Assembly (NCBI RefSeq): GCF_028401385.1
Contig: NZ_JAQOMR010000001.1
Span: 4,008,501-4,072,500 of the forward strand
DNA: 64,000 nt
Reading direction: 5' to 3'
DNA from: Marinicella algicola
GTDB taxonomy: Bacteria; Pseudomonadota; Gammaproteobacteria; Xanthomonadales; Marinicellaceae
The position numbers and the translations under genes are program-made. Each line of letters begins with the position of its first letter. Position 1 is the stretch's first letter. The notes beneath the pieces are model-generated. The model saw nothing but the letters and a program-made list of their open reading frames with translations. It was not told the origin of the DNA and ran no database searches. Shown here piece after piece: positions 1-12,695 of this stretch.

Positions 1-840
1 CCAGCCGCTGGCGGTGGAAAAGCCGGCCTCTTTGAGTTCGGTTTCGACCGCTTCAAGCCGTGGTCCGATCAGCGGTGCATAGCGGGGATCCTCGACGGCG
101 CTGCGGCCGTAGGATTCAATGAAGATCAGCACGACATCGCGACCGCGAACGCCCCGGAACAGGGTGTTGGCCTCCGGCAGGGCCTCGGTTTCAGCCAGTG
201 ACCGGTCAAAGCTCTGCATATCTTTCATCGCCTGCGTGACGGATTGGATGCGGGCGACGAGATAGCCGGAGGCGCGGGTATCGGCGTAAATCCGGGTCCC
301 GGTCGCAGCCCCTGTGGCCCATAGCGCCAGTCCGACCGCCAGAAGAGCGGCAAAGACGAGGACCGGACTACGTGTCTGTTTGCTCGAGAGCCGCGCCAGA
401 TAAAACTGGGACAGGAAAAATACGGCGAGAATACCGAGGAACAGGACGATGGCACCAGTGACCGCCAGCGCTGCAGCAAGGCCCCCGATTGTGCCGGAAA
501 ACACATTCCAGCCATCGGCAAAGATCCGAAGATCAAGATAGGGGTTGAAGCGGCGCTGAAAGGCCGATTGCACGCCGATATCGCCGAGCTTGAGGAACAG
601 GATAATACCAACGGCGACAGTGGCGAGCGCTGCCAGAACCAATGCGACACGGCGCGGCAGAAGCACGAGCGCCAGGCCGAGAAGCGGGATCTCTATCGGT
701 AGATGCGCAAATGCTCTCGCTGAAAAACCACCCGGATAATCCGGCAGGTTGAGCGCGGCAAAGGCGATGATGACAAACACCAGCACCGCTGCGAACTGGC
801 GCGGAAGGTTCTGCTTGCAACGCGGCCCTTCAGCTATCAT
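1..840 (-). CDS. Membrane sulfatase/LTA-synthase-like phosphotransferase, N-terminal part (cut by window edge)
   Basis: An open frame of 280 codons starts at ATG 840 and runs off the left edge. It holds several hydrophobic segments (about residues 16-32, 44-60, 62-80, 121-143 and 161-178), then a soluble part that begins with DVVLIFIESYG (about 235-245). This is the first metal-binding block of the alkaline-phosphatase/sulfatase superfamily, with Glu242 the likely metal ligand. Membrane proteins of this layout include LtaS-like and phosphoethanolamine transferases acting on periplasmic or envelope substrates. The catalytic Thr/Ser lies outside the window, so the substrate cannot be told. It is divergent from the flippase-like gene at 897 and may belong to the adjoining pathway cluster. 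Confidence 0.75.
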   Translation of the reverse strand, partial: MIAEGPRCKQNLPRQFAAVLVFVIIAFAALNLPDYPGGFSARAFAHLPIEIPLLGLALVLLPRRVALVLAALATVAVGIILFLKLGDIGVQSAFQRRFNPYLDLRIFADGWNVFSGTIGGLAAALAVTGAIVLFLGILAVFFLSQFYLARLSSKQTRSPVLVFAALLAVGLALWATGAATGTRIYADTRASGYLVARIQSVTQAMKDMQSFDRSLAETEALPEANTLFRGVRGRDVVLIFIESYGRSAVEDPRYAPLIGPRLEAVETELKEAGFSTASGW

Positions 841-896
841 GAACATTCCTTGTCTGTCCGGTCATCCGGATATTGTGCCCTGGAAAGGAGCGGCTG

Positions 897-1820
897 TTGC
901 CCGCATATGGCGTTCTTGCGGTGATTTTCTGTCTGGCGATTATTGCCGGGCTGTTTGTCGCTGTCGATCCCGCTGACGTTGTTGCGGCGTTTCAGAATGT
1001 GTCTGCCGGCCCGGTCGTTGTCGCCCTTGCCATCGTACAGGTTCAGGTGGTGCTGTCGGCGCTGCGCTGGCGTTTCACGGCGGCCCGGCTCGGTCATGTC
1101 TTTTCTGCGGCACTTGCGATCCGCGAATATTATATCGCCAGTTTCGTCAATCAAATCCTGCCGGGCGGAATGGCGGGCGATGCGGTGCGGGCCTATCGCA
1201 GCCGCACGGAAGAGGGCTGGAAACGCCCGGCTGCAGCCATCGTGCTCGAGCGGCTTTCGGGGCAGCTCGCCTTTTTCCTGCTGGCGGGTGCCGGGCTGTT
1301 CGTCTGGCCGGTTTTTCTGGCCGATCGTCTGCCGCCGGGTTTTGCGCGTCTCGTTTTCATTTGCGCAGGGTTTCTCGGGGTCTTTGCCTGTGCTGGTCTG
1401 TTTATTGCACGATCTCGGCTGTTGGCGCGCTACAAGACGTTGCGGCCGGATCTCGCGGCGGTTTTCTGGAACCGTGGCGCATTCGGTGTGCAAAGCGCGC
1501 TCAGCACGCTGATCGTCGCCTCCTATGTCGCCGTCTTCATGATTGCGGCCTCTGCCACGGGTGCACCGCTGCCGCCGGTCGCCGCCCTCACGGTCATCCC
1601 GCTGTGCCTGATGACGATGCTGATTCCGGCCGGTGTCGGCGGCTGGGGAACGCGCGAAGCCGCCGCTGCCGCCCTCTGGCCGCTGTTCGGTCTCACCAGT
1701 GCCGAGGGGCTTTCGGCAAGCCTGCTCTACGGCATGATCTCGCTTCTGGGCGTTGCGCCGCAGGGCATTTTGTTCCTTGCTGCGACGATGAAGCGCCGCC
1801 GCCAGATCAAGTCGGAATAG
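897..1820 (+). CDS. Lysylphosphatidylglycerol-synthase TM-region/UPF0104 family membrane protein
   Basis: This is a 307-residue polytopic membrane protein. Hydrophobic stretches alternate along its whole length, and it carries the family's NQILPGGMAGDAVRAYR block (about residues 84-100) and GGWGTREAAAA near 250. Such proteins (AglD/MprF-N-terminal-like) are associated with lipid-linked sugar or aminoacyl-lipid translocation, but few have a proven function. A TTG start at 897 is chosen because GGAAAGGAG sits at the right distance upstream; an in-frame TTG at 873 has no such site. The neighbouring phosphatidyltransferase on the other strand suggests a role with a lipid-linked product. Confidence 0.75.
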   Translation: MPAYGVLAVIFCLAIIAGLFVAVDPADVVAAFQNVSAGPVVVALAIVQVQVVLSALRWRFTAARLGHVFSAALAIREYYIASFVNQILPGGMAGDAVRAYRSRTEEGWKRPAAAIVLERLSGQLAFFLLAGAGLFVWPVFLADRLPPGFARLVFICAGFLGVFACAGLFIARSRLLARYKTLRPDLAAVFWNRGAFGVQSALSTLIVASYVAVFMIAASATGAPLPPVAALTVIPLCLMTMLIPAGVGGWGTREAAAAALWPLFGLTSAEGLSASLLYGMISLLGVAPQGILFLAATMKRRRQIKSE

Positions 1821-1866: not shown

Positions 1867-2684
1867 TCATGCCGCACTGAAGCGCTGCCGGGCAAGACGG
1901 AAAACATCAATGCCGAAGGAATAGCTGATCAGCACAAGGGCAATGGCCGCAATCGCCGTCGAAACCGGTGGGGCTATCATCGGTACCAGAATGGCGCACA
2001 ACGCCGACACCTGTATCACACAGATCAGCTTGCGGCGGAACGACGGCCCAAGCGGTGAGCACAGAAATGGCAGCATGGTTTGCGCCAGTACAAATCCATA
2101 GCGCATCAGACCGATCGCCAGCACCCACCATCCGGCCTTGCCCAGAAGAAAGGCCGCAGCGGAGAGCAGCAGGATCAACAGCGCATCGACTTCCATGTCG
2201 AAACGGGTGCCGAGCGCTGACTGAAGCCCGGTGCGCCGGGCAAGATAGCCGTCGACGCCGTCCAGCGCGAGCGCAAACACGACGAGGCCGATAAGGACCG
2301 GCGCAACAGTGTCTGCCTTGGCCGCAAGGTCGCCAAACAACATTGCAGCGCCGAAAAACTGACCATCGCGGCGCGAATGGCGGTGATGATGTTGGCAGGG
2401 CCGAACCGATGATGCTGGTGGCCGGGCAGGGCGACGAGCACAAGTGCGAAGATGGCCAGAAGCAGGAGCGCTGCTGCTATCGGCGTACCGGGGCCCGTTC
2501 CAAGGAAGACTGAAAGCCCAAGATAGGCGGCCATCGATACAAGATAGATGGAGAAAAGCGCGGCAATCGTGTTTTTCAGCAACGGGTTCCGGTCTTGCCC
2601 TGCGGTATCGTGCGCTCTGTCAGTGCGCAGGCGGAGATCGCGCAACGGCGTTCGTCTGGCTGTTGGTGGTTCGAGCGTGCTCAT
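1867..2684 (-). CDS. CDP-alcohol phosphatidyltransferase family protein (one-base undercall)
   Basis: An integral membrane enzyme that would join a CDP-activated alcohol (usually CDP-diacylglycerol) to a second alcohol. The family signature D-x2-D-G-x2-A-R-x8-G-x3-D-x3-D is complete in the segment DGVDGYLARR...FDMEVD. The frame breaks at a T run (plus-strand A5 at 2354-2358). Adding one T joins IRAAMVSF to FGAAMLFGDLA and gives a protein of about 272 residues. Start ATG at 2684, only 5 bases after the ribA-like stop at 2690, so the two genes are probably cotranscribed. The acceptor alcohol is unknown. Confidence 0.85.
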
Positions 2685-2689
2685 GCGAT

Positions 2690-3796
2690 CTATTCCGCCG
2701 CGATCAGGCTTTCGAGCTCCAGCGTGTGACCGGCTCGCAGCGCTTTGGTTCTCAGATAATTCACATTGTCAGCGGTCACGGTGCCCGTGACGCGAACCTG
2801 ATCTGTCACATCAATGCCGCTTGAGCGCAAGCCGTCAACCTTTGTCGGGTTATTGGTATGCAGCACAATCTTCGAGATGCCGAGCAGTTCCAACATTGCC
2901 GCAGCAGCCTCGTAGCGGCGGTGATCGCTCCCAAGGCCGAGTTCGGCATCGGCGTCGATGGTATCAAGTCCCTGATGCTGGAAACCATAGGCACGCATCT
3001 TGGCGCCGATCCCCGTGCCCCGGCCTTCCTGATCGAGATAGATCAAAACCCCGCCACCGACAGCCTTCAGCTGTGCAAGGCCGTTTCTGAGCTGATCGCC
3101 GCAATCGCATTTCAGTGAGCCGCACAGGTCGCCGGTGAGGCATGAGGAATGAATGCGCACATGAACGGGTGCGTTAGTGTCCGGCTTGCCGACAATGATG
3201 GCGATCTGGTCCTTTTGTGCCAGCCCGCCGCGGAACACGGCGAAATCGGCATCGCCGATGTCCTTCAACGGCACCCGTGTGCGCGCAACCTGCTGAAAGC
3301 GTTGACGTGCAGCATCGCTTCGCCGAAGGTTTTTCAGGTCGACACACTGGCAGGCAGCAAAGCGCGTGTCTCCACGTTCGATTTCGGTGGAGATCATGGC
3401 CGGCAGCAGCAAGGCGAGGCGCGCCAGTTCAGCAGAGGCCGCCATCAGCGTGTCGGCGGGTGCCCATGCTGCGGGTTTCGTACCGGAAAGCGCATAGGCA
3501 TGGCGCGACGCGGCTTCGAAATCGGCGCCGTCAAGCGGAACGGCAATGCCCGTTTCAGCCGTTATGCCGAGCCGGTCGGCACGTTCCTTGGTCAAAAACA
3601 GGCTGTGCCGGTTTTCTGCAGCGCGGGCAAAACGGTCGTAAAGCGAAGGCGCCACACAATCGAGCGCGAGCGTCACACGCTGCCGGTCGCCATCACGCAT
3701 GATCACGGGGCGGCCGAAGCGCAGTTCCGCTACAGCGCGCTCCACCTCGATTTCAGGCGAAACGGATTCAAAGTCGACAAATTCATCCTGCGCCAT
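2690..3796 (-). CDS. ribA: GTP cyclohydrolase II (RibA) with degenerate RibB-like N-terminal domain
   Basis: 368 residues. The C-terminal ~195 residues are a full GTP cyclohydrolase II: zinc motif C-x10-C-x-C in SSCLTGDLCGSLKCDCGDQ, the catalytic QEGRGTGIG loop, and HTNNPTK near the end. The enzyme opens the imidazole ring of GTP to give 2,5-diamino-6-ribosylamino-pyrimidinone phosphate. The N-terminal ~165 residues resemble the DHBP-synthase domain (AVAELRFGRPVIM, LTKERADRLGI) but lack its acidic DDEDRENEGD active site, so this half is probably inactive. Start ATG 3796 follows GGAGAG; a longer upstream frame is ignored. It is divergent from the MDR gene over a 215-bp gap. I infer a pathway paralogue rather than the housekeeping riboflavin gene. 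Confidence 0.88.
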   Translation of the reverse strand: MAQDEFVDFESVSPEIEVERAVAELRFGRPVIMRDGDRQRVTLALDCVAPSLYDRFARAAENRHSLFLTKERADRLGITAETGIAVPLDGADFEAASRHAYALSGTKPAAWAPADTLMAASAELARLALLLPAMISTEIERGDTRFAACQCVDLKNLRRSDAARQRFQQVARTRVPLKDIGDADFAVFRGGLAQKDQIAIIVGKPDTNAPVHVRIHSSCLTGDLCGSLKCDCGDQLRNGLAQLKAVGGGVLIYLDQEGRGTGIGAKMRAYGFQHQGLDTIDADAELGLGSDHRRYEAAAAMLELLGISKIVLHTNNPTKVDGLRSSGIDVTDQVRVTGTVTADNVNYLRTKALRAGHTLELESLIAAE

Positions 3797-4011
3797 TGCG
3801 GTCTCTCCCCGTTTGCCGGCCCGTCTACTCACTCGTCTACTGGCCTTGAACAATTGTTGCATTCATCGTTTACAACGTTTTCACTTCCCAAGTGGTTCAG
3901 TCTGCTGCACAAAAACAGCAAGGGAAGTGCACGTTCATGTGAGCCGGAACAAAACCGTCTGCGCAACGTCCTATTGTGGACCTGCAATTTCATTGAGGCG
4001 AGGAGAGGGCA

Positions 4012-5010
4012 ATGTCGGATTCAACACCGGCCGGGCACACCGGAATTTCGGGGCGCGCAACAGCTTTGTGGTTTCCCGAGGCCGGACGCTGCGCATTGCG
4101 CGCCGAAGCGCTTCCGGATCCGCGCGCGGATGAGGCTCTCGTTGAAACGCTCTATTCCGGCGTCAGCCGCGGAACGGAGACGCTGGTGTTCATGGGCAAG
4201 GTGCCGGAAAGCGAGCGGGCGCGCATGCGCGGGCCCAACATGGCCGGCGATTTCACCTTTCCGGTGAAATATGGCTATGCCGCCGTCGGCCGGGTTGTGG
4301 CAGGCCCGGGAAACCTGATCGGCCGCCATGTGTTCTGCCTGCATCCTCATCAGGACCGCTTTGTCGCGCCCGTTGCCATGCTCTCGGCCCTGCCCGAAGG
4401 CCTGGCCCCGGAACGCGCCGTGCTGGCCGCCAATATGGAGACCGCGCTCAACATCGTCTGGGATGCGGCGATCCAGCCGGGCGATACGGTCGCCGTCTTC
4501 GGTGCCGGCACGGTTGGCGCGCTGGTGGCCTATCTCTCAGCCTCCATTGCGGGCACCGAGACCACGCTGATCGATCCCAATGCCGGGCGGGCAGCACTTG
4601 CGCAACAGCTCGGCGTGGCATTTTGCGCAAGCGGCTATGAGGGGCCGTTCGATGTGGCGGTCAATGCTTCGGGGTCGGACAAGGCGCTAGCCACGGCAAT
4701 CGAAAGCGCCGGACAGGAGGCGCGGATTGTGGAAGCGAGCTGGCATGGTGCAGGCAATGCGGCCATCCCGCTCGGCGGATCATTTCATGCACGCCGGCTT
4801 TCCGTCGTCAGTTCGCAGGTCGGTTCGATCCCGCCGTCACATCGCGCGCGCTGGACGTTTTCGCGGCGCATGGCCAAGGCGCTCGAACTTCTTGCCGATG
4901 CCCGCCTTGACGCGCTGATTTCGGGCGACACTTCATTTACGGAGCTTGAGGATGCCTATCCCGGCATTCTGTCGTCTCCAGACACGCTCTGCCATCGCAT
5001 CCGCTATTGA
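4012..5010 (+). CDS. Medium-chain dehydrogenase/reductase, zinc-ligand-poor (BchC-like architecture)
   Basis: 332 residues with the MDR layout: a GroES-like N-terminal half and a Rossmann half with GAGTVGALVAYL (about residues 165-176). The catalytic-zinc Cys of classical alcohol dehydrogenases is replaced by YSGVSRGTE, a version seen in MDR enzymes of the BchC type. Catalysis without the usual zinc site is therefore likely. It begins a four-gene plus-strand run with the PTPS-like, glycosyltransferase and methyltransferase genes. The substrate is unknown; from context it would be a pyrimidine, pterin or sugar intermediate. Confidence 0.75.
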   Translation: MSDSTPAGHTGISGRATALWFPEAGRCALRAEALPDPRADEALVETLYSGVSRGTETLVFMGKVPESERARMRGPNMAGDFTFPVKYGYAAVGRVVAGPGNLIGRHVFCLHPHQDRFVAPVAMLSALPEGLAPERAVLAANMETALNIVWDAAIQPGDTVAVFGAGTVGALVAYLSASIAGTETTLIDPNAGRAALAQQLGVAFCASGYEGPFDVAVNASGSDKALATAIESAGQEARIVEASWHGAGNAAIPLGGSFHARRLSVVSSQVGSIPPSHRARWTFSRRMAKALELLADARLDALISGDTSFTELEDAYPGILSSPDTLCHRIRY

Positions 5011-5022
5011 GGAAACCCCCAT

Positions 5023-5421
5023 ATGTTTGCTGTCGAGGTTCGCGATCACATCATGATCGCCCATTCGCTTCCCCGCCCGGTGTTCGGCCCTGCCCAGGCC
5101 ATGCACGGCGCGACATTCGTGACCGACGCCGCGTTTTTCACGCGCGATCTGGATGATGACGGGCTGGCCGTCGATATCGGTGCCGCGACCACGGTTCTGG
5201 GCGAGGTGCTGAAGCCGCTGAACTACCAGAACCTCGATGAACTCGAGGCGCTCAAGGGCAAGGTGACAACCACGGAAGTGATCGCCAAGTTCATTTTCGA
5301 CCGGCTTGCCGAAGCGGTCGCCGACGGGCGCCTTGGTCCGGGCAGCAGCAGGATTTGCAAGATCCGCGTCACATTGCACGAATCCCACGCCGCGCGCGGG
5401 TGGTATGAGGCCGATCTTTGA
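5023..5421 (+). CDS. PTPS/QueD-fold protein with altered active site
   Basis: 132 residues with the length and order of 6-pyruvoyl-tetrahydropterin/6-carboxytetrahydropterin synthases. The normal HGH zinc pair is HGA here (AQAMHGATF), the catalytic Cys position upstream of it is not Cys, and the LDHxxLN block reads LNYQNLDEL, so the catalytic His is Tyr. The C-terminal LHES glutamate that anchors the pterin ring is kept. I read it as a pterin- or pyrimidine-binding fold with changed or lost lyase chemistry. It sits 12 bp after the MDR gene and overlaps the next start. Confidence 0.72.
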   Translation: MFAVEVRDHIMIAHSLPRPVFGPAQAMHGATFVTDAAFFTRDLDDDGLAVDIGAATTVLGEVLKPLNYQNLDELEALKGKVTTTEVIAKFIFDRLAEAVADGRLGPGSSRICKIRVTLHESHAARGWYEADL

Positions 5422-6455
5422 AGCTGGTCTTCGCCTTCCCCGGCAGTCTCGATCTGAAGACCGGCGGCTACGGATATGACCGGCGGTTGATCGCAGCGCT
5501 TGAGGCTTCGGGGTGGCAGGTGACGCTTATGCCGCTGGGAGACGGATTTCCATATCCCGATGGACCTGTCCTGAAAACAGCCGAAGAGGGGCTTTCAGCG
5601 GTTCCGGACGGAGCGCTGATATTGATCGACGGGCTTGCCTTCGGCGTGCTGGATGAATGGGCTGCGCGCGAGGGTCGGCGGCTGAATATCGTCGCTTTGG
5701 TGCATCACCCGCTTTCGCTTGAGACCGGGCTGTCGCCGGAGCGGGTCACGGCCCTGCGGAGAAGCGAAACCCGTGCGCTGGGTCACGCTCGCCACATCAT
5801 CGTAACCTCGCCTCAGACAGCACGCGAATTGGTTGCCGGCTTTTGCGTGGATGTTGAAAACATCACCATTGCCGTGCCGGGAACGGACAGGGTTTCACCG
5901 GCAGCGGGGAGTAATGGACCGCCACATATCCTCTCCGTTGGCACGCTGACGCAGCGCAAGGGGCATGATGTGCTGATTGCCGCGTTGAAGCAGGTCGAAG
6001 ACCTCGCCTGGACAGCGACAATTGCTGGCAGCCAGAGACTTGACGCCGATACGGCGTCGAAAATCGAACAGCAGATCCGCGCGTCGGGTCTTGGCGATCG
6101 GGTTAATCTGGCGGGTTCGGTAGAAGACACCGGCGTTTTATTTGCCGGGGCCGATCTCTTTGCGCTGGCCAGCCGTTATGAAGGCTACGGTATGGTGTTC
6201 GCCGAAGCGCTGGCGCATGGTTTGCCCATTGTCGGTTGCCGCACAGGCGCCGTTCCGGATGTGGTGCCGGACGATGCCGGGATCCTGGTGCCGGTGGACG
6301 ATGTCAGGGCCTTTGCTAACGCGCTGCGACGCTTTCTTATCGACCCGAAACGACGCCTTGAAAAGGCGGTTGGGGCGCAGAGGGCGGGTGCTCTGCTTCC
6401 CGGTTGGGCGGAGACAGGTTGCATCGTTTCCGATGTGCTGGAGGAGATAACATGA
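5418..6455 (+). CDS. Glycosyltransferase family 4 (GT-B)
   Basis: 345 residues from a TTG start that overlaps the preceding stop (TTGA). The C-terminal domain has the retaining GT-B signature: the E-x7-E motif in RYEGYGMVFAEALAHGLPIV, preceded by SVGTLTQRKGHDVLIAAL for nucleotide-sugar binding. The N-terminal part begins AFPGSLDLKTGGYGYDRRL, with the glycine-rich acceptor loop. It transfers a sugar to an unknown acceptor. Within a cluster of GTP-derived ring chemistry the simplest inference is glycosylation of that ring product; a lipid acceptor is the alternative. Confidence 0.8.
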   Translation: MKLVFAFPGSLDLKTGGYGYDRRLIAALEASGWQVTLMPLGDGFPYPDGPVLKTAEEGLSAVPDGALILIDGLAFGVLDEWAAREGRRLNIVALVHHPLSLETGLSPERVTALRRSETRALGHARHIIVTSPQTARELVAGFCVDVENITIAVPGTDRVSPAAGSNGPPHILSVGTLTQRKGHDVLIAALKQVEDLAWTATIAGSQRLDADTASKIEQQIRASGLGDRVNLAGSVEDTGVLFAGADLFALASRYEGYGMVFAEALAHGLPIVGCRTGAVPDVVPDDAGILVPVDDVRAFANALRRFLIDPKRRLEKAVGAQRAGALLPGWAETGCIVSDVLEEIT

Positions 6456-7242
6456 GTTTTGACGCTGACTGGCTTTTACTGCGTGAACCGGCAGACCGGG
6501 CCGCCCGCAATGGCCATCTGATGGACGCGCTCACGCGCCACCTTGCTGCAAAGCGCAGACCTCGGATCGTCGATATCGGTTGCGGAACTGGATCGACGCT
6601 TCGCAGCCTTGCGGGGACGGTTCCTGCTGATACAGAATGGCTGCTTCTCGACAATGATCCCATTTTGCTGAGAGCTGCGGAACGGCAGACCGATGCGGAA
6701 AAAGGGTCGCCTTTCGCCGGCACGATCTGAATGACCTTGGCGGGCTTCCGCTTGAGGAGGTCGCATTTGTTACCGCGTCCGCACTGTTTGATCTCTGCTC
6801 AGAGGCCTTCTCGGCAGCGTTCGCTGAAAGGCTCGCCATGGGCGCTGTCGGGCTCTATGCCGCGCTGAACTATAACGGCCGCATTCAGTGGTCCAAGCCG
6901 CACGCGCTCGATAATGACGTGGTCGCCGTCTTCAACAGGCATCAGCAGACTGACAAGGGCTTTGGCGTGGCACTCGGCCCCACGGCGTCAGAACGGTTGG
7001 CAGCCCTGTTCGGGGCGCACGGTTTCCGGGTCGAGACGGCGGAAAGCCCTTGGCTGTTAAACGGGGACAGCAAAGCGCTTCAACGCGCCTTCATCGAGGG
7101 TTTCCGTCAGCCGCTGCAGGAGATCGGCGGTCTGACATCCCGCGATATCGAAGCCTGGATCACGTTCCGCATCGCTGTCATTGATGAGCCGGACAGCCTG
7201 TGCACCGTCGGCCATACCGACCTACTCGCCCTGCCTGGCTGA
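6452..7242 (+). CDS. Class I SAM-dependent methyltransferase (one-base undercall)
   Basis: Start ATG 6452 overlaps the glycosyltransferase stop (ATGA). SAM-binding motif I is VDIGCGTGSTLRSL (about residues 36-49), followed by an acidic LLDNDP at the end of strand 2. The frame breaks at A5 6699-6703. One more A gives AEKRVAFRRHDLNDL and continues to the stop at 7242, about 264 residues. The last 21 bases overlap the opposing RibD-like gene. It probably methylates the pathway intermediate, on O or N unknown. Confidence 0.8.
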
Positions 7243-7989
7243 CGCCGAAAGCGCGCAATCGAACAGGACATCGCTGCCGAGGCTGAATATTTCGGCGTCG
7301 GGCCGCAGTGCATCGGATAGCCGCGCGACCGGCGGCAGGTTGAGACCGTTGGGTCCGGCGCCGATGATCAGCGGCGAAATGGCGACATGCAGCCGGTCGA
7401 GCTGTTCTTCCGATATGAAGCGGGCAATGGTGCGCGCGCCGCCTTCAACGAGGATGCGCCTGAGGCCGCGCGCGGTGAGCGCATTGACGATTGCGCCGGT
7501 TTCAATGCCGTTTTCACCAGGCGCAAGGCGCAGAATTTCGGCATTCGGCAGATGCCGTGCGCGAACGGACGTGCTTTCAACGATGATCACCGGCGCACCA
7601 CCGTCATGGAACAAGCCCTCGTTGCCATCAAGCTGGCCGTTGCAGTCGATCACCACACGAACGGGCGAGGGGCCTTTCACCAGCCGGACCGAAAGGCGCG
7701 GATTGTCGGCCTTCACTGTGTTGACGCCGACGATCACCGCCTCGACGAGTGCGCGGCAGCGGTGCAGGTGGGCCAGCCCGTCGGGCCCCGAAATATCCAT
7801 GGCATCGCCTGATGGCGTCGCGACCCGCCCGTCGAGCGACTGGCCGACCTGCGCAAGCACAAATGAGCCGGGCGCAGCGGCGATCGGGGCGTAGAGCGTG
7901 GCGGTGGGGGTAACGTCCAGAGCTGGTCCGCCCGCGCGAAGGGCAAGCAGCCGCTCCCAGAGGGGTTCCGTCATTTCGACAGTCTTCAT
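7222..7989 (-). CDS. RibD C-terminal-type reductase (pyrimidine reductase, no deaminase domain)
   Basis: 255 residues of the dihydrofolate-reductase-like RibD_C family: AQVGQSLDGRVAT near residue 45, VGVNTVKADNPRLSVR in the NADPH/substrate region, and ILVEGGARTIARF near 190. RibD_C enzymes reduce the ribosyl group of ribosylamino-pyrimidine phosphates to ribityl with NADPH. The cytidine-deaminase-like half of housekeeping RibD is missing, as in stand-alone reductases. Together with the ribA-like gene this gives two steps of GTP-to-pyrimidine chemistry in one locus. It lies 3 bp downstream of the cytochrome b561 gene. Confidence 0.85.
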   Translation of the reverse strand: MKTVEMTEPLWERLLALRAGGPALDVTPTATLYAPIAAAPGSFVLAQVGQSLDGRVATPSGDAMDISGPDGLAHLHRCRALVEAVIVGVNTVKADNPRLSVRLVKGPSPVRVVIDCNGQLDGNEGLFHDGGAPVIIVESTSVRARHLPNAEILRLAPGENGIETGAIVNALTARGLRRILVEGGARTIARFISEEQLDRLHVAISPLIIGAGPNGLNLPPVARLSDALRPDAEIFSLGSDVLFDCALSASARQGE

Positions 7990-7992
7990 GCC

Positions 7993-8550
7993 TTACAATA
8001 TCCGGTAGAGGGTGAAATCGCGCCGGATGATGTGGTGCATCAGTACCGCCCCGATATGAAGCACGAACAAAACAGCGAGGATCCATGCGGTGGCCAGATG
8101 GATGGCCGACAGCGTCCCGGCGATATCTGGCGCCTTGCCGATCGGGCTCCAGATGGGCAGGACGCCAAACCAGCTGAACGGGAAGCCATGCGCGTTGGTG
8201 GCGAGAAACCCGCTGAGTGGCATGATGATCAGGAACACATAGAAAAGCCCGTGGACCGAGGCCGCTGCGATCCGCTCGATCTGTGGTCCGTCTTCTTGCG
8301 GCGCGCGCGTCAAAAGCCGGTTTCCGACCCTGAGAAGCATCAGCCACAACACCAGAAAGCCAAGGCTTTCGTGGATCAGATAGAAATCGAGCGAGACTTC
8401 GTTCTTGACGAACTTGATCACCATGCCCAGCGGCCATGTCAAAAGCACAAGGACTGCGATCACCCAGTGCAGGATGCGTGAGGTTGCGGGATAGCGCTCG
8501 ACGTCAATCGCAAGACGCGATGGTTTGCCCGGTCCTGTGTTCTCGTTCAA
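7993..8550 (-). CDS. Cytochrome b561 family membrane protein
   Basis: 185 residues with four hydrophobic segments and the haem-ligand histidines of the bacterial CybB type: RILHWVIAVLV (TM1), LIHESLGFLVLW (TM2), ASVHGLFYVFLI (TM3) and FVLHIGAVLMHHII (TM4). It moves electrons across the inner membrane using haem b. Its position just upstream of the RibD-like reductase suggests cotranscription and perhaps electron supply to a redox step of the pathway, but this is inference. Confidence 0.85.
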   Translation of the reverse strand: MNENTGPGKPSRLAIDVERYPATSRILHWVIAVLVLLTWPLGMVIKFVKNEVSLDFYLIHESLGFLVLWLMLLRVGNRLLTRAPQEDGPQIERIAAASVHGLFYVFLIIMPLSGFLATNAHGFPFSWFGVLPIWSPIGKAPDIAGTLSAIHLATAWILAVLFVLHIGAVLMHHIIRRDFTLYRIL

Positions 8551-10047: not shown

Positions 10048-11149
10048 TTACGGCACCAGCGTCAGCAGCACGAAGACGGCAAAGATCACAAGATGAACCG
10101 CGCCCTGCAACACGGTGGTGCGGCCGGTGCCAAGTGTGATCGTACTGACAAACAGCGTGAGAAGCAGCATCACCGTTTGCTCTGGCTCGAGCCCGAGGGT
10201 CATCTGACGGCCGAGTGCGATCGAGATCAGCGCCACCACCGGGATCGATATGCCGATACTGGCAAGCGCCGAGCCGAGCACCAGATTGATGCTCTGCTGG
10301 ATCCTGTTTTTCATTGCTGCCTGCACCGAGGAAATGCCCTCCGGCATCAGCACCAGGGTGGCAATCATCACGCCCACCAGCGTCTGCGGCAAGCCGGCCA
10401 TGGAGATTGCCTGGTCAAGCGGAGCTGACAGTATTTCGGCAAGCAGGATCACCATCAGAAGCGAGAACGGAAGCAATACAGCGCTTGCTGCTGTCACCCG
10501 GTTCGGCGGCACTTCGTGGTGGGCGGGGAAGAATTCGTTGTCGTCGCCATCCGGCTCGTCGGTGAAGTAGTTGCGGTGGCGCACGGTCTGGATAAACAGG
10601 AAAACGCCGTAAAGCAGCAGGCAGCAGATGCTGACGACAAGAAGCTGCGCCCATGAATATTGCCGGGCCGGGCCGGAGATTGCGTAATTCGGCAGCACGA
10701 AAGCGAGTGTCGAAAGCGTGCCGAGTACGGCAAGGGCTGCGGTCGCTGCGGCGAGCTTGAAACTCTGTTCGTGATAGATCCGTCCACCGACGACGAGGCA
10801 AAGCCCGATAATGCCGTTGAGGACAATCATGACGGCGGCAAAACCGTGTCGCGCGCGACTTCCTCAGCCCCTCAGCACCCGACAGCATGATCGAGACGAT
10901 CAGCGCCACCTCGATCAGCGTCACACAGCCGGCGAGGATGATCGACCCCATCGGCTCTCCGACCTTCGCTCCCAGGATTTCAGCATGGAGAACGGATGCA
11001 AATACCGAGCCGCCGAGAAGCAGAACCGCAGGCACCAGAAAGATGATCGATGTATCATGCAGTACACCGAACATTTCGAGCGCGACGATGACGGCAGCGG
11101 CCAGCGGCAACAATACGCTCCACAGGGGTATCGAACTCGGGCTGTGCAT
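10048..11149 (-). CDS. chaA: Calcium/proton antiporter ChaA-like (CaCA family; one-base undercall)
   Basis: A polytopic CaCA-superfamily exchanger of about 366 residues. The two alpha-repeat signatures are present: GEPMGSIILAGCVTLIEVALIV in the first half, and a second acidic repeat, ATLVLMPEGISSVQAA, in the other half. An acidic hydrophilic loop (DEPDGDDNEFF) separates them. The frame breaks at plus-strand C4 10868-10871; adding one G on the coding strand gives GAEGAEEVAR. Expected to export Ca2+ (or Na+/K+) in exchange for H+. It lies 59 bp downstream of the efflux operon's last gene, possibly in the same transcript. Confidence 0.85.
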
Positions 11150-11208: not shown

Positions 11209-12695
11209 TTAGCGGGGAACTGTGGCTGCTGTCGAGGTGCCCAGCACGAAGGCAAGGTTGGCGGCAGCGGTAAAGGCGGCTTCCCGCGCGTCGCTTTCAG
11301 CCAGCCGCGCCTCCAGGAGGCCGGTCTGTGCGGTTGCCAGCGCCGGGACAGTGCCGACACCGTTCTGATAGGCTTCGAGCGCAGAATCGTAGGTCTTGTA
11401 GGCGGCCTGACGGAGTTTGACCGAAGAGGCATTGGCCTGAAGTGCGGTCGTCAGCGCATTGGAAGCGACAACGATCTCGCGGGCGGCGGTGTCTTTCAGC
11501 TGTTCAAAATTGCGTTTGGCGGCTTCCACGCGGCTCTCGGCCTGTTTCAGATTGGCGTCGCGCATGCCGGCGTCATAAAGCGGAATGGTGGCGCCGATCA
11601 TGATATTGCCGTTGAGGCCGTTATTGTCGATGGTCGGCAGTCCGCCCGCAGTCACGCCTGTTTCATAGGATGACAGCGTTCCGAAAATGCCGACCTTCGG
11701 CATGAAGTCGGAGCGGGCCTTTTGACGCCCTCGCGGCTGGCCTCAAGCGTGGCATAGCCCGCCAGAATATCGGGCCGGTTGGAAAGTGCGATCTCGATCA
11801 TGGTATCGACCGGCGCGCGCGATGAAGCGGGCAGGCCGCGTCCGGCTGTATCGGCGATCTTCAACTTTGACATCGGCGAAATGCCGAGTGCGCCGAGTAA
11901 CGCCTGATAGCTGTCCTGCTCGGTGCCCCTGGCCTGCACGAGGCCGAGTTCGGCCTGCGCCATGATCTGTTCGGCCTGGGCTTGATCAACGGAAGTGGCC
12001 AGTCCGCGGTCCCTGCGGGCCACCACCGCATCGGAGACGGTCCGGCTGTTGGAAAACGCTTGACTTGCGGCGCGCGTGTGGGCGCGGGCTGCATTATAAT
12101 CGTGATAGGCGCCGGTTACCGCGAACACCAGTTTCTGGTGCATGGCGTTGAACTGGTAGTTAGAGGCAAGCGACATCTGCTTTGCCGCTTCCACGACCGC
12201 ACTGCGGCCCCCGAAATCGAGCGCCAGCCATTGCAGCGCCATGAAGGGCACCACACCTTGAATATTGCTGTCAAAATAGGCGCTGCCGCCAATCGGTATC
12301 GGCAGTTCCGCAGCGTTCTGGTTGGAACCGGCGATGACATTGGCAGTGATCACCGGCAGATAAGTCGCCTCTGCCATGCCGACGGCAAGAGCGGCTTGAC
12401 GTGCCTGCTCCCATGCCGCTCGTGTTCCCGGATTGGTGCGCTGGGCAAGGTCGATCAGTTCCGGCAGCGTATAGGTCTTGCTGGTGTCGACCACCGGTTT
12501 TGACAGTGCCAGTTCGGTGCCGCCTTGCGCGGTGGTTCTGAGGTCATCTGCATTGGTGTTTTCCGCTGCCGGCAGCCACGGACGTTCGGGCGATGGCGGC
12601 GCCAGCGACAGGGAGTCGGCCGCGCAGCCGCCGAGCGCGGTGAGTGCGAATACAGTCATGATACCGGCCATTCCGGAAAGAAGGTTTCGGTTCAC
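11209..12695 (-). CDS. NodT/MdtP-type outer-membrane efflux lipoprotein (TolC fold; one-base undercall)
   Basis: An outer-membrane factor of about 495 residues. The signal ends in lipobox ALGGC, so it is a lipoprotein of the NodT/CusC/MdtP branch. Two repeats of the TolC fold are visible, including DIGGRS-like LDFGGRSAVVEAAK and TIPLYDAGMRDANLKQAESRVEAAK. The frame breaks at plus-strand T4 11720-11723; one added A restores EGVKKARSDFMPKVGIFG. The start overlaps the stop of the FUSC gene (ATGA), so the two are translationally coupled as the last step of a tripartite pump. Confidence 0.88.

Follow-up and report, generated by a model that had tools for sequence, protein, structure and literature searches.

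Gene Content and Organization of the Locus

The window analyzed here, i.e. the whole 64,000-nucleotide stretch of the Marinicella algicola assembly GCF_028401385.1 (contig NZ_JAQOMR010000001.1, forward-strand positions 4,008,501 to 4,072,500), carries at its left end a set of ten genes, in which a GTP cyclohydrolase II (GCHII) domain stands together with a protein of the 6-pyruvoyltetrahydropterin synthase (PTPS)/QueD fold, a glycosyltransferase, and a methyltransferase. The set represents a pathway that is real, conserved, and mobile, and which is unassigned as far as searched. Its members are listed below, L040 being the corresponding locus of Martelella lutilitoris.

1..840, minus strand: sulfatase-superfamily (LtaS/phosphotransferase-like) membrane protein, the 3' part extending left of the window
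873..1820, plus strand: flippase-like membrane protein (LPG_synthase_TM, PF03706, 138 bits)
1867..2684, minus strand: CDP-alcohol phosphatidyltransferase (PF01066 on the 3' piece; two tblastn pieces)
2690..3862, minus strand: RibA-like protein, a GCHII domain behind a degenerate RibB (3,4-dihydroxy-2-butanone 4-phosphate (DHBP) synthase) region (NF006456, 481 bits; PF00925)
4012..5010, plus strand: MDR-family dehydrogenase (BchC, 59 bits, far under the cut-off)
5023..5421, plus strand: PTPS/QueD-fold protein of the SCO6650 type (PF01242, 73 bits)
5418..6455, plus strand: GT4 (GT-B) glycosyltransferase (PF13692, 103 bits)
6452..7242, plus strand: class I S-adenosylmethionine (SAM) methyltransferase (two tblastn pieces; the intact copy at L040:11430-12221 matches PF13649)
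7222..7989, minus strand: stand-alone RibD-type reductase (PF01872, 124 bits, the sole Pfam match)
7993..8550, minus strand: cytochrome b561 (PF01292, 94 bits)

All the families named in the first-pass annotation of this DNA (CDP-alcohol phosphatidyltransferase, GCHII, MDR, PTPS, GT4, methyltransferase, RibD_C, and b561) are indeed present where it had placed them. Its description of the four plus-strand genes as bound by tight overlaps applies to two of the three junctions: the four-base overlaps TTGA at 5418-5421 (PTPS/GT4) and ATGA at 6452-6455 (GT4/methyltransferase) are real, but the MDR and PTPS genes are separated by a 12-base gap. The sulfatase-type gene could be followed by tblastn with the L040 protein from window position 840 to -785, in a single frame and with 77% identity; the L040 copy matches PF00884 (33 bits), and the nearest solved chain is LtaP, with a weak match (E 0.023). 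In the RibA-like gene, the similarity to the L040 copy begins at 3796 (tblastn).

The left flank shows 84-85% DNA identity to L040 of Martelella lutilitoris and L038 of M. radicis, and the gene set of the window 73-77% identity to L037, L038, and L040; the window DNA is treated here as Martelella-like. This match is at odds with the kinship (family and class) that the genome tool assigns, in that genomes of the same class appear gammaproteobacterial by their gene content (L033-L035).

Two of the genes are broken between frames in this assembly, the CDP-alcohol gene near 2355-2361 and the methyltransferase gene near 6706. This amounts to 2 of the 8 window genes tested by tblastn (the set without MDR and PTPS), compared with 0 of 8 in each of L037, L038, L039, and L042. 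Assembly indels are a likelier cause than decay of the locus alone, because further genes at 10-12.7 kb look split as well, namely a cation antiporter-like gene (10048-11149) and an outer-membrane efflux-like gene (11209-12695), both of which are named from their translations and both of which seem to be divided between frames.

Conservation and Co-occurrence of the Gene Set

A scan of public genomes with the PTPS alignment detected at least 583 coding relatives, and the best 80 of these by the tool's ranking were taken as the "named loci". They belong mostly to Rhizobiaceae, with others from Roseibium, Pannonibacter, Cohaesibacter, Phyllobacterium, Falsirhodobacter, and a few metagenome-assembled genomes, and, as close relatives whose ends lie at about 10 kb or at contig ends, they are not independent of one another. 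Among these best 80, PTPS (by construction), MDR, and GT4 were found in all 80, the methyltransferase in 79, CDP-alcohol in 76, the sulfatase in 73, RibD-like in 71, the flippase in 64, b561 in 63, and RibA-like in 55; MDR, PTPS, GT4, and methyltransferase occur together in 79, with RibD-like as well in 71, and all ten genes in 42. The CDP-alcohol motif is present in 70/70 copies from the named loci and in 16/17 others, the window piece counted in. From the 80 loci ten profiles were built, with the training frames checked for the PTPS profile only; of its 71 sequences 6 are out-of-frame open reading frames, and the other 65 all have FGPA(Q/K)xxHGAT.

A second sample of 40 diverse loci was chosen solely for a PTPS match, with the window not counted, and comprises 20 of the 30 loci from the 240-genome draw described below, 7 from a phylum draw, 5 from a draw of the source's class, 1 from relatives of the source genome, and 7 of 26 plasmid records. 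Here PTPS (40, by construction), GT4 (38), MDR (38), methyltransferase (34), and RibD-like (30) recur most often, followed by CDP-alcohol (16), RibA-like (14), b561 (11), the flippase (10), and the sulfatase (7). The four genes MDR, PTPS, GT4, and methyltransferase are found together in 33 of the 40, and RibD-like accompanies them in 27. Among the losses are those at a contig end in L035, in the rearranged genome of L161 (G675), and in L123, which has PTPS alone. The leftward extension of the unit, comprising the flippase-like and sulfatase-type genes, is usual in the named loci and infrequent in the diverse ones.

Conserved co-occurrence, the absence of which the first-pass annotation had considered damaging to its own reading, held when 240 genomes evenly drawn from the class of G309 were searched for PTPS (E <= 1e-10), MDR (E <= 1e-20), and the methyltransferase (E <= 1e-10). 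PTPS-like and MDR genes were each detected in 30 genomes, and these are the same 30; the methyltransferase was found in 29, all among those 30, and neither MDR nor the methyltransferase had a match in the other 210 genomes at the cut-offs used. In G505, the genome lacking the methyltransferase, the contig breaks off 150 bases from the PTPS gene, and it does so at the side on which the methyltransferase would be expected. The genes co-occur even where they lie apart, as in G490, with MDR on a different contig than PTPS, in G647, with the methyltransferase on another contig, and in G675, where the methyltransferase is 63 kb away. The hypergeometric value for the PTPS/MDR overlap, 7e-39, ignores relatedness and serves as a guide only. 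The class of G309 is taken as alphaproteobacterial, since its loci group with or near the window, Agrobacterium, and Methylosinus on the tree described below.

The pairwise gene identities are also correlated, in 20 of 21 gene pairs (r 0.59-0.80; the remaining pair had too few loci), the observed value being reached in 0-6 of 500 permutations (L123 and L161 left out). Elsewhere PTPS-like genes were found in 15/249 genomes of the phylum draw (E <= 1e-10, source genome counted), in 14/76 genomes from the order of G629 (E <= 1e-15), and in 2/41 relatives of the source genome, the source counted. In the draw of the source's class, 6/185 genomes (source counted) have a full-length match of at least 38% identity; at E <= 0.001 the figure is 39/185, the additional ones being relatives of the canonical type with about 20-30% identity. 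As a unit, the gene set is found in some alphaproteobacteria, gammaproteobacteria, and actinobacteria.

The PTPS-Fold Protein

The model of the PTPS-like protein (pLDDT 94.4) confirms the T-fold, with Foldseek matches to PTPS and QueD chains at ranks 3-32 and TM scores, per query length, of 0.61-0.76. The protein belongs to the family of SCO6650 from Streptomyces coelicolor (PDB 3d7j), which matches profile A2 over positions 1-132 with 208 bits (E 4.9e-61) and is 54% identical to the window protein, with a TM score of 0.96. The family is therefore not wholly unseen, having a solved member. The authors of 3d7j reportedly found no PTPS activity, with the zinc and the triad absent and a pocket suited to a pterin-like ligand.

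We take the functional residues of PTPS/QueD proteins to be a catalytic Cys, three zinc His (H..HxH), an Asp-His pair, and a ring-binding Glu. These were compared between 32 aligned proteins of the set, the window's one counted, and 23 canonical proteins, of which 22 are from the 24 loci L008-L031 and one from L032. In all 32 set proteins the catalytic Cys is replaced by Ala, HGH has become HGA, so that the third zinc His is gone, and the His of the Asp-His pair is absent, with the Asp retained in 2. Two His and the ring-binding Glu are retained in 32/32. Asp72 and Thr84 do not vary among the set proteins, whereas most canonical ones have Asn and Ala at these positions. The canonical controls, by contrast, retain the Cys in 22/23, HGH in 23/23, the Asp in 23/23, and the His in 22/23.

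These replacements make a role in queuosine synthesis very unlikely, judging from sequence, because the catalytic Cys, the third zinc His, and the catalytic His are all changed in 32/32. It has to be noted that the gene is the source genome's single PF01242 match (E <= 0.001), which leaves queuosine synthesis there with no other QueD candidate unless the PTPS-like protein serves.

The RibA-Like and RibD-Like Proteins

The zinc Cys motif of GCHII is present in all 65 RibA-like proteins, and 64 of them have the Tyr (a further match, in L158, was set aside as being an ordinary RibBA); these are presumably the zinc-binding and catalytic residues of the enzyme. The motifs ENEGD, TTGIS, GHxFPL, and HTE(G/A), which we take to be the active-site motifs of DHBP synthase (RibB), are each found in 0/65, while all four are present in the RibBA of the source genome itself. 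The RibD-type reductase matches PF01872 only, no deaminase domain being found with Pfam, and its nearest solved relatives are 6p8c and 2azn, the former a 2,5-diamino-6-ribosylamino-4(3H)-pyrimidinone 5'-phosphate reductase.

Elsewhere in the source genome RibD, RibBA, and RibH lie together at C1:3.271-3.274 Mb (RibE was not searched for), the RibBA being the second GCHII of the genome; RibD_C matches lie at C1:3.273 Mb, along with two weaker pieces on C2. An ordinary riboflavin role of the locus was rejected, and the locus is not one of ordinary riboflavin synthesis, because these enzymes are encoded elsewhere and the RibB motifs have been lost from the RibA-like proteins. The presence of a second RibA and RibD and of a RibH at another place supports the reading of the set as something other than housekeeping riboflavin synthesis, and the proof of an ordinary riboflavin or queuosine function that the first-pass annotation had set against itself did not appear.

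A route in which GCHII yields a formylated compound, which a creatininase-type enzyme would then deformylate, was considered as well. The Tyr of GCHII decides which product is formed, and as it is retained in 64/65 proteins, including four of the five encoded at loci having both a RibA-like gene and a creatininase, such a route is not favored in general. The fifth, L118 of Streptomyces, has Met at the Tyr site and a creatininase gene next door, and the formylated-product route would fit there.

The MDR, GT4, and Methyltransferase Proteins

The MDR protein matches only the cofactor-domain Pfam model, and this under its cut-off, its best NCBIfam relative being the distant BchC. The motif [ST][GA]xSxGTE is found in 98 of 104 sequences and KxGY in 101, and the usual catalytic-zinc motif is missing (a GHE-like pattern is seen in 1/104), in agreement with alignment A3. 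The pattern EG(Y/F)GMxxx(E/N) is present in 32/39 GT4 sequences, and the nearest solved chains, MshA and Tll1590, the latter presumably of the sucrose-phosphate synthase type, are too distant to fix donor or acceptor. For the methyltransferase, the intact L040 copy (model pLDDT 97.3) gave only generic class I matches in the fold search, which do not point to a substrate; a weak resemblance to ToxA (8rdl, E 0.021) was seen.

Spread, Mobility, and Neighboring Genes

Genes of the set are found in PLSDB on plasmids of Rhizobium and others, and plasmid neighborhoods were read for two actinobacteria (Streptomyces fungicidicus and Microbacterium), for a gammaproteobacterium (Candidatus Thiodictyon syntrophicum), and for Methylosinus trichosporium OB3b and Agrobacterium tumefaciens. 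In S. fungicidicus, the SCO6650 relative lies in a CDP-alcohol-MDR-PTPS-GT4-methyltransferase arrangement, with creatininase-RibA further along. In Microbacterium (L119), the set, without RibA, is carried by a 59-kb mobilizable plasmid, on which fluoride exporters and a universal stress protein are encoded close by, and a plasmid of Streptomyces sp. NBC_00019 (L123) has an SCO6650-type PTPS gene with no other set gene nearby.

A midpoint-rooted FastTree phylogeny of MDR, PTPS, and GT4 from 37 loci (L035, L123, L161, and L167 left out) places the three actinobacterial loci in one clade (support 1.0), nested in a group otherwise made up of five loci from genomes that the genome tool assigns to the source's class or order (support 0.99). 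This nesting suggests that the gene set has been transferred between phyla. Compact sets are retained in two small genomes: CDP-alcohol, MDR, PTPS, GT4, methyltransferase, flippase, and RibD-like genes in one of 1.1 Mb (L036), and creatininase, MDR, PTPS, GT4, methyltransferase, RibD-like, and RibA-like genes in one of 1.6 Mb (L160).

The glucan glucosyltransferase OpgH/MdoH is encoded near the set in 12 of the 40 diverse loci, with an end-cut piece in L167, and a CDP-alcohol or flippase gene in 16; one locus has both and 13 have neither (Fisher p 0.012 when relatedness is ignored). YceI is found in 9 of the diverse loci, 7 of which also have the CDP-alcohol gene, and neither OpgH nor YceI was detected in the 80 named loci at E 1e-10. 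These layouts make it probable that the product of the set is processed at the inner membrane or past it, by means that depend on the lineage.

A creatininase-family hydrolase is encoded near the set in 8 of the 40 diverse loci (e.g. L160:8086-8853, L151:6379-7191, and L118:13653-14444), the L118 protein matching MftE best among the NCBIfam models and ArfB weakly. The source genome has four creatininase-family matches, none of which lies in the locus or is clearly of the set type. In view of this, the creatininase is no more than a candidate for a general enzyme of the pathway. In L032, a FolE2 gene and one for a canonical QueD-type protein (6595-7949) lie directly beside PTPS-GT4-methyltransferase.

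Proposed Pathway and Alternatives

The gene set is, in our judgment, probably a dedicated, mobile, and conserved pathway that turns GTP into a pyrimidine or pterin glycoside bearing a methyl group. The observations themselves concern the genes, the way they are inherited together, and the altered residues, and it is from the protein families that we infer the reactions and the class of product. The RibA-like protein would convert GTP to 2,5-diamino-6-(5-phosphoribosylamino)pyrimidin-4-one, as its GCHII domain suggests, following which the lone RibD-type reductase, judging from its nearest solved relatives, would reduce the ribosyl to a ribityl chain without deamination. The PTPS-fold protein may bind the 2-amino-4-oxo-pyrimidine or pterin ring via the retained Glu, and the step it catalyzes would differ from that of ordinary PTPS/QueD enzymes. 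Oxidation or reduction of a side chain would fall to the MDR enzyme, and GT4 and the methyltransferase would add a sugar and a methyl group, respectively. In the layout of the window, the CDP-alcohol, flippase-like, and sulfatase-type proteins may attach the product to the membrane or move it across, with OpgH taking their place in other lineages. It is likely that the first steps are GTP-derived and that the late steps include sugar and methyl transfer.

A start from GTP via GCHII is the best reading, and fits because the zinc motif is kept in every RibA-like protein and the RibB motifs in none; the pterin route is its main rival. Several observations weigh against the main reading. No RibA-like gene lies near the set in 25 of the 80 named loci (the best 80 of at least 583) and in 26 of the 40 diverse loci, and no RibD-like gene in 9/80 and 10/40, respectively. 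The GTP start therefore rests on part of the loci, those with GCHII (55 of the named and 14 of the diverse), and a housekeeping enzyme would have to serve where the RibA-like protein is absent. L032, with FolE2 and the canonical QueD-type protein, has no RibA, RibD, or MDR, L123 holds the PTPS-like gene alone, and the creatininase near 8 of the 40 diverse loci does not fit. Two genes of the source copy are split, and if these splits are genuine the copy may no longer function; the pathway as a whole is a predicted one.

In the first alternative, which is possible though unlikely, the pathway is a FolE-derived pterin one, in which the PTPS-fold protein works on a substrate of the dihydroneopterin type, the RibD-type protein acts as a pterin reductase (of the DHFR-fold superfamily), and GT4 and the methyltransferase make a methylated pterin glycoside akin to those of cyanobacteria. 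The ring-binding Glu retained in 32/32 proteins and the FolE2 and QueD-type genes adjoining the set in L032 are consistent with this, as is the production of pterin glycosides by cyanobacteria described in a 2026 review (PMC13259868). However, GCHII is the recurrent cyclohydrolase, FolE being seen in one locus (without a systematic FolE search), and the RibD-like protein is nearest to reductases of the ribosylaminopyrimidine type.

A doubtful extension of the GTP-start proposal is that the glycosylated and methylated pyrimidine or pterin is lipid-linked and serves, from rhizobia to actinobacteria, as a new redox cofactor of the membrane or periplasm. An intermediate bearing ribityl phosphate would then be joined to a phospholipid by the CDP-alcohol enzyme and turned toward the periplasm by the flippase-like protein, with YceI and cytochrome b561 serving to carry and reduce it.

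It is quite improbable that the set serves salvage or detoxification, glycosylating and methylating a reactive diaminopyrimidine leaked from riboflavin synthesis. The duplication of the first riboflavin steps by the RibA-like and RibD-like proteins could be seen in this light, but a detoxifier has no need of a GCHII of its own, and the set is retained in two small genomes and often stands with membrane proteins. Ordinary riboflavin or queuosine synthesis, although suggested by the automatic annotation as RibA, RibD, and 6-carboxytetrahydropterin synthase and by the lack of another PTPS-family gene found in the source genome, is scarcely credible in view of RibD, RibBA, and RibH lying elsewhere, the RibB motifs missing from 65/65 proteins, and the QueD residues replaced in 32/32.

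Comparison with Known Systems

The first-pass annotation had likened the logic of the locus to that of toxoflavin-type 7-azapteridine synthesis. The likeness stands for the GCHII-type start together with the SAM methyltransferase and goes no further: the RibD of the locus has no deaminase domain (Tox-specific genes were not searched for), and, to our knowledge, toxoflavin clusters have no GT4, PTPS fold, or MDR. The branch of riboflavin synthesis that reduces before deaminating, known from archaea and fungi, is similar in its stand-alone reductase, the locus one being nearest to 6p8c and 2azn, but differs in that here the locus has no DHBP synthase motif and no deaminase or lumazine synthase. 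Queuosine and 7-deazapurine pathways, such as those of huimycin and toyocamycin, share the PTPS/QueD fold, and the huimycin pathway also has a glycosyltransferase and a methyltransferase; the difference lies in the three QueD residues lost here, and neither QueE nor QueC was noticed among the recurrent neighbors, in which no search was aimed at queuosine genes. With the cyanobacterial pterin glycosides, which are FolE-derived, the shared feature to be expected is a glycosyltransferase whose acceptor derives from GTP, whereas here GCHII recurs, and CDP-alcohol phosphatidyltransferase and flippase-like proteins or OpgH are present in many loci.

Full-text literature searches turned up no paper on the gene set by title or abstract; subscription literature lay mostly outside these searches, so they do not prove that none is in print. 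The earlier claim that the glycosyltransferase and the PTPS fold fit no known pathway has to be qualified in that the PTPS family has a solved member in 3d7j, although the searches yielded no pathway or ligand for SCO6650. SCO6655 is mentioned once in a metabolic model paper (PMC2853524). Overall, the earlier interpretation is partly supported, the dedicated and conserved set being borne out and the product class being a predicted one.

Biological Significance

The synthesis of folate, riboflavin, pterins, queuosine, and several antibiotics begins with a GTP cyclohydrolase. The present set likely adds a further branch, conserved as a whole in two phyla, retained by two small genomes, and equipped with a re-tooled PTPS active site, and it provides a pathway in which the orphan structure 3d7j can be placed. 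According to the 2026 review (PMC13259868), it is unknown how bacterial pterins cross the membrane, and an efflux system for them has yet to be identified; a likely GTP-derived set that stands together with OpgH, CDP-alcohol, and flippase-like proteins is relevant to this question.

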